This document shows, piece by piece, positions 46,065 to 47,345 of a stretch of DNA of 64,000 nucleotides (the first letter of the stretch is position 1; every line of letters begins with the position of its first letter). The position numbers and the translations under genes were made by a program. A model generated the notes under the pieces. The model had not been told where the DNA came from. It saw only the letters and a program-made list of their open reading frames with translations, and did no database searches. Location: positions 124,001-188,000 of the forward strand of contig NZ_SHMH01000008.1 of the NCBI RefSeq assembly GCF_004283755.1, written 5' to 3'. Origin of the DNA: Pseudoxanthomonas winnipegensis. Its GTDB lineage: Bacteria > Pseudomonadota > Gammaproteobacteria > Xanthomonadales > Xanthomonadaceae.

Positions 46065-46466
46065 ATGACAGACAACGATAGCCAGGCCGGTGGATTGGAC
46101 GGCCTGCGGGTGATGGTGATCGACGATTCGAAAACCATCCGGCGCACGGCCGAGACCCTGCTCAAGCGCGAGGGCTGCGAGGTGGTGACCGCCACCGACG
46201 GCTTCGAGGCGTTGGCCAAGATCGCCGACCAGCAGCCGCAGATCATCTTCGTGGACATCATGATGCCGCGCCTGGACGGCTACCAGACCTGCGCGCTGAT
46301 CAAGAACAACCAGGTCTTCAAGCGCACGCCGGTGATCATGCTGTCCTCCAAGGACGGCCTGTTCGACAAGGCGCGCGGGCGCATCGTCGGGTCCGAGCAG
46401 TACCTCACCAAACCGTTCACGCGGGAGGAGCTGCTCGAGGCCATCCGCACCCACGTCGCCGCCTGA
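46065..46466 (+). CDS. pilG: twitching motility response regulator PilG
   Basis: Single-domain CheY-like protein, 133 residues, output of the Pil-Chp chemosensory system acting on pilus extension and cAMP signalling. The acidic pair is Asp20/Asp21 (VIDDSKTIRRTAE), the phospho-acceptor Asp64 in IIFVDIMMPRLDGYQTC, with the conserved Ser/Thr and Lys in MLSSKDG and YLTKPF. It is the first gene of the operon; its stop codon is immediately followed by a 271-bp inverted-repeat element in place of pilH. Confidence 0.95.
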   Translation: MTDNDSQAGGLDGLRVMVIDDSKTIRRTAETLLKREGCEVVTATDGFEALAKIADQQPQIIFVDIMMPRLDGYQTCALIKNNQVFKRTPVIMLSSKDGLFDKARGRIVGSEQYLTKPFTREELLEAIRTHVAA

Positions 46467-46737
46467 TAGAGCGTGCTATGCACATTGAGATGAGATGCGT
46501 TGGCTGTCAGCGGTGCGGAGGTGGTGTCGCGCGGTGCGGCCTTGGCTGGCTGCCAAGGCAAGCCGCGCGGCGCCGGCTCCGTGCCGCTGACGGCCAACCC
46601 GGAGGGAAGCGACCTGGCGCGCGCCGATACTGCGTTGCGCGCTTTGCCCAGGCGGCCAGCCTGGGCGGCAGCGCACGCCTTGTCTCGACACGCCCCAGGT
46701 CGCTTCGCACTCATCTCAATGTGCATAGCACGCTCTA
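46467..46737. mobile_element. 271-bp element with perfect 28-bp terminal inverted repeats (MITE-like)
   Basis: The ends 46467-46494 (beginning TAGAGCGTGCTATGCACATT) and 46710-46737 are perfect reverse complements over 28 bp. Each end starts with TA, consistent with a TA target duplication as made by IS630/Tc1-type transposases. Two nested arms lie inside. Arm one: 46499-46516 with 46581-46598 (15 of 18), enclosing GCGCGG/CCGCGC (46529-46568) and CCTTGGC/GCCAAGG (46540-46558). Arm two: 46607-46617 with 46695-46705 (11 of 11), enclosing GCCCAGG/CCTGGGC (46646-46666). No open frame in it looks coding. It abuts the pilG stop codon. Confidence 0.85.
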
Positions 46738-46746
46738 GGGAACGCC

Positions 46747-46815
46747 ATGGACGCCGTTTCCCATCGCCCCGCCGCCCACGCCTCCGGCCTCGCCTCGTCG
46801 CAGGTGTCGGCATGA
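46747..46815 (+). CDS. 22-codon ORF coupled to pilI
   Basis: ATG at 46747, ten bases beyond the inverted-repeat element, encodes 22 residues (MDAVSHRPAAHASGLASSQV, then SA) and ends in TGA overlapping the pilI start as ATGA. GGAA precedes the ATG. It may restart translation after the structured element and couple pilI, or may be a remnant of whatever stood between pilG and pilI. No similarity to PilH is apparent. Whether it is translated is unproven. Confidence 0.35.
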   Translation: MDAVSHRPAAHASGLASSQVSA

Positions 46816-47345
46816 TCCGCACGCCTTTCGACATCCTGGCCGACTACGAGCGCCGCAGCCTGGCCCACGCGGTGGCCCTGCCGCAGGCGCGCGCCGAGGA
46901 GGATCAGTGGCGCGGGGTCGCCTACCGGATCGGGTCGCGCCGGCTGGTGTCCAGTTTCGATGAGGTGGTGGAGATCGTGCCGATCCCGCCGGTGACGCCG
47001 GTGCCCGGCGCGCAGCCGTGGATGCTGGGCGTGGGCAATCTGCGCGGCAACCTGTTCCCGGTGATCGACCTGAAGCAGTTCCTCCAGGGCGAGCGGACCG
47101 TGCTGCACGAGGGGCAGCGGGTGCTGGTGATGCGCCAGGCCGGTGGCGATGTGGCGCTGACCATCGACGAACTGTACGGGCAGCGCAGCTTCGGCCGCGA
47201 CCAGGTCACCGCGCCTGGGGCGCTGGCCGATGGCCGCTTCGGACATTTCGTCTCGCAGGCGTTTTCCAGCGACGGCCAGGATTGGGGGGTGTTCGCGCTA
47301 TCGCTGCTGGCGCGAACGCCGGAGTTCCGGCAGGCCGCGCAATAG
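46812..47345 (+). CDS. pilI: CheW-like adaptor PilI
   Basis: A 177-residue CheW-fold coupling protein linking the chemoreceptor PilJ to the kinase ChpA, close to the length of Pseudomonas PilI (178). The CheW core runs from YRIGSRRLVSSFDEVVEIVPIPP through GVGNLRGNLFPVIDLKQFL and VLVMRQAGGDVALTIDELYG. The ATG at 46812 overlaps the 22-codon ORF; the longer upstream frame runs through the inverted-repeat element and is rejected. pilJ starts 76 bp later. Confidence 0.93.
   Translation: MIRTPFDILADYERRSLAHAVALPQARAEEDQWRGVAYRIGSRRLVSSFDEVVEIVPIPPVTPVPGAQPWMLGVGNLRGNLFPVIDLKQFLQGERTVLHEGQRVLVMRQAGGDVALTIDELYGQRSFGRDQVTAPGALADGRFGHFVSQAFSSDGQDWGVFALSLLARTPEFRQAAQ

Follow-up and report, generated by a model that had tools for sequence, protein, structure and literature searches.

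A dispersed MITE with a three-way-junction fold between pilG and pilI of Pseudoxanthomonas winnipegensis

Bacterial MITEs are usually regarded as gutted insertion sequences (ISs) whose interior is not under selection. REP sequences and REPINs, with their RAYT transposases, are dispersed, palindromic and mostly intergenic, as is the element reported here, which unlike them is about 270 bp long, has TA-bounded terminal inverted repeats (TIRs) and has a DDE-type IS5 partner. The Correia elements of Neisseria insert at a TA target. Compared with our element by description, they are likewise small and non-autonomous, with TIRs and folded transcripts (PMC10969869, in the part available to us), but differ in sequence, length and host, and two long conserved internal arms are a feature of our element. 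What is new with respect to known MITEs is the conserved fold, a common core combined with different ends, and landing in stop codons. Among the titles and abstracts listed by PMC full-text searches, none described the element.

The window is a 64,000-nucleotide stretch of P. winnipegensis DNA (genome G000 below). The element, the founding copy of a family that we call F1, is 271 bp long, begins one base past the TGA of pilG (46464-46466), carries perfect 28-bp TIRs that include the terminal TA, and holds no transposase ORF (Table 1). Its closing stem comprises 31 pairs in total, with one unpaired A. Folding and comparison of the ends thus bore out the sequence-only reading, which had placed the start at this base and had proposed a three-way-junction design bounded by these repeats. 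As DNA, the element folds at -128 kcal/mol, compared with -69.35 (sd 3.98) in 200 shuffles (z -14.7); as RNA, it folds at -221.4, compared with -130.7 (sd 5.0) for shuffles (z -18.1). A known RNA family was rejected as its identity: in Rfam 15, no family reached the gathering score, and the only matches were six sub-threshold ones of microRNA type.

Table 1. Features at the pilG-pilI locus of the window, and positions of the sister family F2 elsewhere in the same genome
Feature	Position	Strand	Remarks
pilG	46065..46466	+	intact; TGA adjoins element
Whole element F1	46467..46737	+	271 bp, TA at both ends
Closing stem, left half	46467..46498	+	28-bp TIR + 3 pairs past one unpaired A; opens TAG
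Arm 1, long hairpin	46499..46598	.	36 + 8 pairs
Junction CCGGAGG	46599..46605	.	2-bp mini-stem
Arm 2, long hairpin	46606..46706	.	32 + 8 pairs
Closing stem, right half	46707..46737	-	minus-strand reading likewise opens TAG
Leader ORF, 22 codons	46747..46815	+	overlaps pilI start (ATGA); AGGGA ahead of ORF kept
pilI	46812..47345	+
F2 copies in G000	C16:93953 (L304), C16:163091 (L311), C15:118833 (L317), C2:91775 (L322)

The element belongs to a family of non-autonomous transposable elements (MITEs) dispersed through Xanthomonas and its relatives. We put at roughly 0.9 the probability that its place between pilG and pilI is the work of a trans-acting transposase, presumably of an IS5-type source, that recognises ends of about 21 bp. 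The same estimate covers the restoration of a stop by the TAG of copies that land in a stop codon, a fold taken to act at the DNA level, and tolerance of this insertion.

Copies, target site and partner insertion sequence

The sequence-only reading had called the element MITE-like, and had proposed counting its copies and looking for empty sites. This check revealed copies at many places in several genera, and the label held. Any F1 match was detected in 22 of 61 genomes, mostly short and partial, and at E <= 1e-10 across the family in 14 of 198 genomes and 5 of 54 genera. Matches were present in at least 28 of the 35 Xanthomonas-genus genomes, with up to 28 per genome among the matches listed; this is the genus of G195, and flank identity places X. 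cissicola in it. With the exact end pattern, 50 stretches were recovered from the genome collection, every one from Xanthomonas or Pseudoxanthomonas. The window's own genome has one full F1 copy, and G010 has one at another location with 92% identity. P. wuyuanensis gave 13 hits, distributed over 12 places, and 10 copies are full-length with 71-73% identity; three copies have common flanks and the others different ones. The full-length P. wuyuanensis copies L044, L045 and L046 were probably copied inside a larger repeat, as all three have the same flanks and no terminal TA. Carriage on plasmids or phages was rejected, since neither the plasmid nor the phage collection contained a match to the element.

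Overall, 29 of 60 copies are full-length (266-276 bp) and 27 are shorter than 255 bp. The shorter copies have mostly lost parts of the arms, with breakpoints that mostly differ, apart from two pairs with common breakpoints. Four P. wuyuanensis remnants of 51-53 bp (L223, L225, L226 and L227) hold hardly more than the two joined ends, and three of them have an identical inner junction.

The copies point to a duplicated TA target. TA stands at both ends in 41 of the 60 copies, and 34 of these 41 fit Y-TA...TA-R; the remaining seven include the window's own copy (A-TA...TA-G). A single TA is seen at one empty site, in a GGDEF gene: G261 reads CTA-gaacag where G256 reads [TA...TA]-gaacag, with one base differing alongside.

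A candidate partner came from the same end pattern. In G263, a genome of the genus Xanthomonas, the pattern recurs paired exactly 861 bp apart, at least 18 times. The 861-bp unit so delimited is an IS whose ends measure 21 bp and which encodes a transposase of 268 aa. The transposase belongs to the IS5 family (NF033580, transpos_IS5_3; E 8e-58, 196 bits against a cut-off of 110), with Pfam PF01609 (DDE_Tnp_1) and PF13340 (DUF4096) above cut-off, so that an IS630 partner, which had been guessed from the TA ends, was rejected. G263 contains 45 transposase matches, of which 42 cover the whole length or almost all of it with 99-100% identity, and all 22 IS copies checked fit Y-TA...TA-R. The IS is an autonomous element with TA ends and target like those of F1, and on each side the window element matches its end at 18 of 21 positions. 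Unlike the IS, the element has no transposase gene, and its three-way-junction interior is, as far as seen, unrelated in sequence to that gene.

The 861-bp IS5-family type is the likely source of the transposase, judging from these sequence matches. The transposase was matched in 8 of 20 genomes tried, mostly as fragments beyond G263, G195 and G272. At E <= 1e-20, it was absent from the window's genome, from five other Pseudoxanthomonas genomes tried, and from the two genomes richest in element matches among those listed, G256 and G269. Given these absences, movement in trans is put forward as a proposal. A transposase, probably supplied by the IS5 group, would recognise the roughly 21-bp ends of the element and insert it at a Y-TA-R target so that TA is left on both sides.

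Insertions at stop codons

Gene context was assigned with a codon-model gene caller of our own, for which the 50 end-pattern loci served as training set; 6 of the 60 copies were dropped because their flanks were short. No called gene contains any of the remaining 54 copies. The terminal TAG of the element is the stop codon of the neighbouring gene in 26 of them, and three gene ends otherwise reach into an element. After merging copies by shared flanks, the element supplies the stop codon at 24 of 48 independent sites; in the background, stop codons make up 41 of the 249 Y-TA-R sites that are not interior to genes. This corresponds to an approximately threefold excess (binomial 8e-8, if sites are independent and the gene caller is correct). 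With TAG as the first bases of its ends, the element would re-create a stop codon whenever it inserts into the TA of a TAA or TAG stop. For example, the copy at gcvR in G010 does not truncate the protein, because the same residue is the last one in 119 of the 120 homologues listed, out of 1190.

The sister family F2, described below, occurs at stop codons in 4 of 10 copies examined. None of 22 IS copies in G263 does, as judged by a caller not trained on that genome, which counts against a stop-codon preference built into the transposase. The excess may reflect selection after insertion. Landing in a stop codon and supplying a new one would be a simple form of harmlessness for a mobile element in a compact, GC-rich genome.

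A conserved fold and a sister family

Across 36 copies, 88.7% of cells pair; shuffles reach 80.0% and slid partners 30.2-44.9%. Changes on both sides occurred at 50 of 117 pairs, compared with 36.6 (sd 2.7) in shuffles, none of 500 reaching as high, and 20-30 with slid partners; these figures are inflated by the relatedness of the copies and by a structure taken from one alignment row. By part, the paired changes number 15/31 in the stem, 17/36 and 1/8 in arm 1, and 15/21 and 2/18 in arm 2. We then compared mismatch types. Where the window has a Watson-Crick pair, 165 G-T and 183 A-C cells were counted in the other copies (stem 33 and 56, arm 1 81 and 38, arm 2 51 and 89, respectively); at pairs whose commonest type is Watson-Crick, the counts are 129 and 112. 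If one RNA strand were under selection, G-U should prevail in every part; we therefore read the fold as acting at the DNA level or as a self-correcting palindrome, a reading against which the lean of arm 1 toward G-T counts. At the DNA level, the fold could bring the ends together in transposition, or the palindrome could be kept by template switching.

A second family in G000, F2, bears on this choice. It comprises four weaker matches of 270 bp with ends TAGGGCCTG...CAGGCCCTA and some end decay. Compared with F1, it has the same three-way junction and junction motif and a related arm 1, but different ends. A covariance model of arm 1 and the junction, built from both families, found matches in 9 of the 37 genomes of Pseudoxanthomonas. 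Copies of F2 with delimited boundaries, 269-270 bp long, come from G000 (4), G017 (2), G026 (2), G010 and G034; G024 and G006 contain forms with other ends.

Within F1, one arm resembles the other taken in inverted order (32 compared with 17.8, sd 3.0; best of 300 shuffles 29), and the same holds for a Xanthomonas F1 copy (35 compared with 18.1, highest shuffle 33). The same comparison was negative in F2 (18 compared with 17.5). Arm 2 also matched the covariance model (E 1.6e-11), which is moderate evidence, because the hairpin resembles its own complement and the opposite strand of arm 1 itself matches (E 1.9e-8). Tentatively, and with rather less than an even chance of being right, these observations outline a Xanthomonadaceae superfamily of about 270 bp that would retain one selected three-way-junction DNA fold, possibly made of two inverted, related hairpin modules. 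Its ends would vary (TAGAGCGTG and TAGGGCCTG in the same genome) to suit different transposases, and those with TAG would settle in stop codons and leave the protein unchanged.

The strongest competitor, only a little short of even odds, is that the internal fold has no role and that template switching between the arms corrects mismatches and so keeps them complementary. The overall near-equality of mismatch types fits this explanation, as does the loss of arm parts from many copies at mostly differing breakpoints. Against it, the full-length form has a constant length in different genera although identity is only about 70%, and F2 keeps its length, junction and arms despite its other ends. 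As interior length and pairing are kept across genera and two end-types, a DNA fold that aids non-autonomous movement becomes a testable idea.

That the element is instead a structured RNA selected for a function in cis, such as processing, attenuation or stability, with mobility secondary, we consider improbable. The fold is very stable, its paired changes exceed those of every shuffle, arm 1 leans toward G-T, and RNase III is described as cutting other bacterial MITEs in transcripts (PMC10969869, in the part available to us). However, G-T and A-C are about equal overall and arm 2 leans the opposite way, leaving RNA-strand selection over the whole element unsupported; nearly half of the copies are shortened, mainly by loss of arm parts; no Rfam family was reached; and the pilG-pilI site is empty in relatives.

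The pilG-pilI locus and the absence of pilH

PilI was present in all 37 Pseudoxanthomonas genomes tried, and loci were obtained for 30 of these, the window included. The pilG-pilI gap lacks the element in all 29 others, with 19-91 nt from the aligned end of PilG to that of PilI. The nearest relative, G017, has TGA-GCCGCA-GGGAAC, compared with TGA-[TA...TA]-GGGAAC in the window; since G017 has GCCGCA in place of the element, the ancestral site was not recovered. G008 reads TGA-GCC-TA-GGGAAA.

We consider the pilG-pilI copy most likely a tolerated insertion, because pilG keeps its stop codon and the AGGGA ahead of the pilI leader ORF is kept. In the pilG frame, the codon after the TGA is the TAG of the element, and GGGAA follows immediately 3' of its last A, with the leader ORF and pilI intact downstream. 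The outward promoters suggested from the sequence alone did not materialise: a consensus scan of 46300-46950 for promoters of the sigma-70 type found no site, and a consensus scan around the element found no intrinsic terminator. A promoter of this type or an intrinsic terminator was rejected on these scans. The element might nevertheless influence pilI-pilJ-chpA expression, for instance as the structured RNA uncoupling pilG from pilI that the sequence-only reading had suggested.

The sequence-only reading had also noted that pilH, which lies between pilG and pilI in Xanthomonas, is missing here. Both halves of this observation stood. In all 12 Xanthomonas loci examined, from a search of 13 genomes, a receiver-domain ORF separates pilG from pilI, and it is a 120-aa PilH-like protein in the three loci with ORFs listed; in X. 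campestris, XC_1183 and XC_1184 are pilG and pilH (PMC7029496, in the part available to us). In Pseudoxanthomonas, all 30 loci lack pilH at this position. Replacement of pilH by the element within the pil-chp operon, suggested by the position of the element in the very gap that holds pilH in Xanthomonas, can be dismissed with near certainty, because the 29 other Pseudoxanthomonas loci have neither pilH nor the element, making the loss of pilH older than the insertion and separate from it. This copy is a caution against taking elements in operon gaps for gene replacements.

The proposed genome-wide search for pilH placed the best PilH match of the window's genome on a different contig. The best match per genome is 44-47% identical in 23 Pseudoxanthomonas genomes; a relocated and diverged PilH could conceivably exist in this genus.

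The leader ORF of pilI is itself widespread. It overlaps the pilI start by ATGA or GTGA in 25 of the 30 Pseudoxanthomonas loci and has at least 12 codons in 22 of them. In six genomes it opens with MDA(V/A)S, and its frame is maintained although lengths differ.
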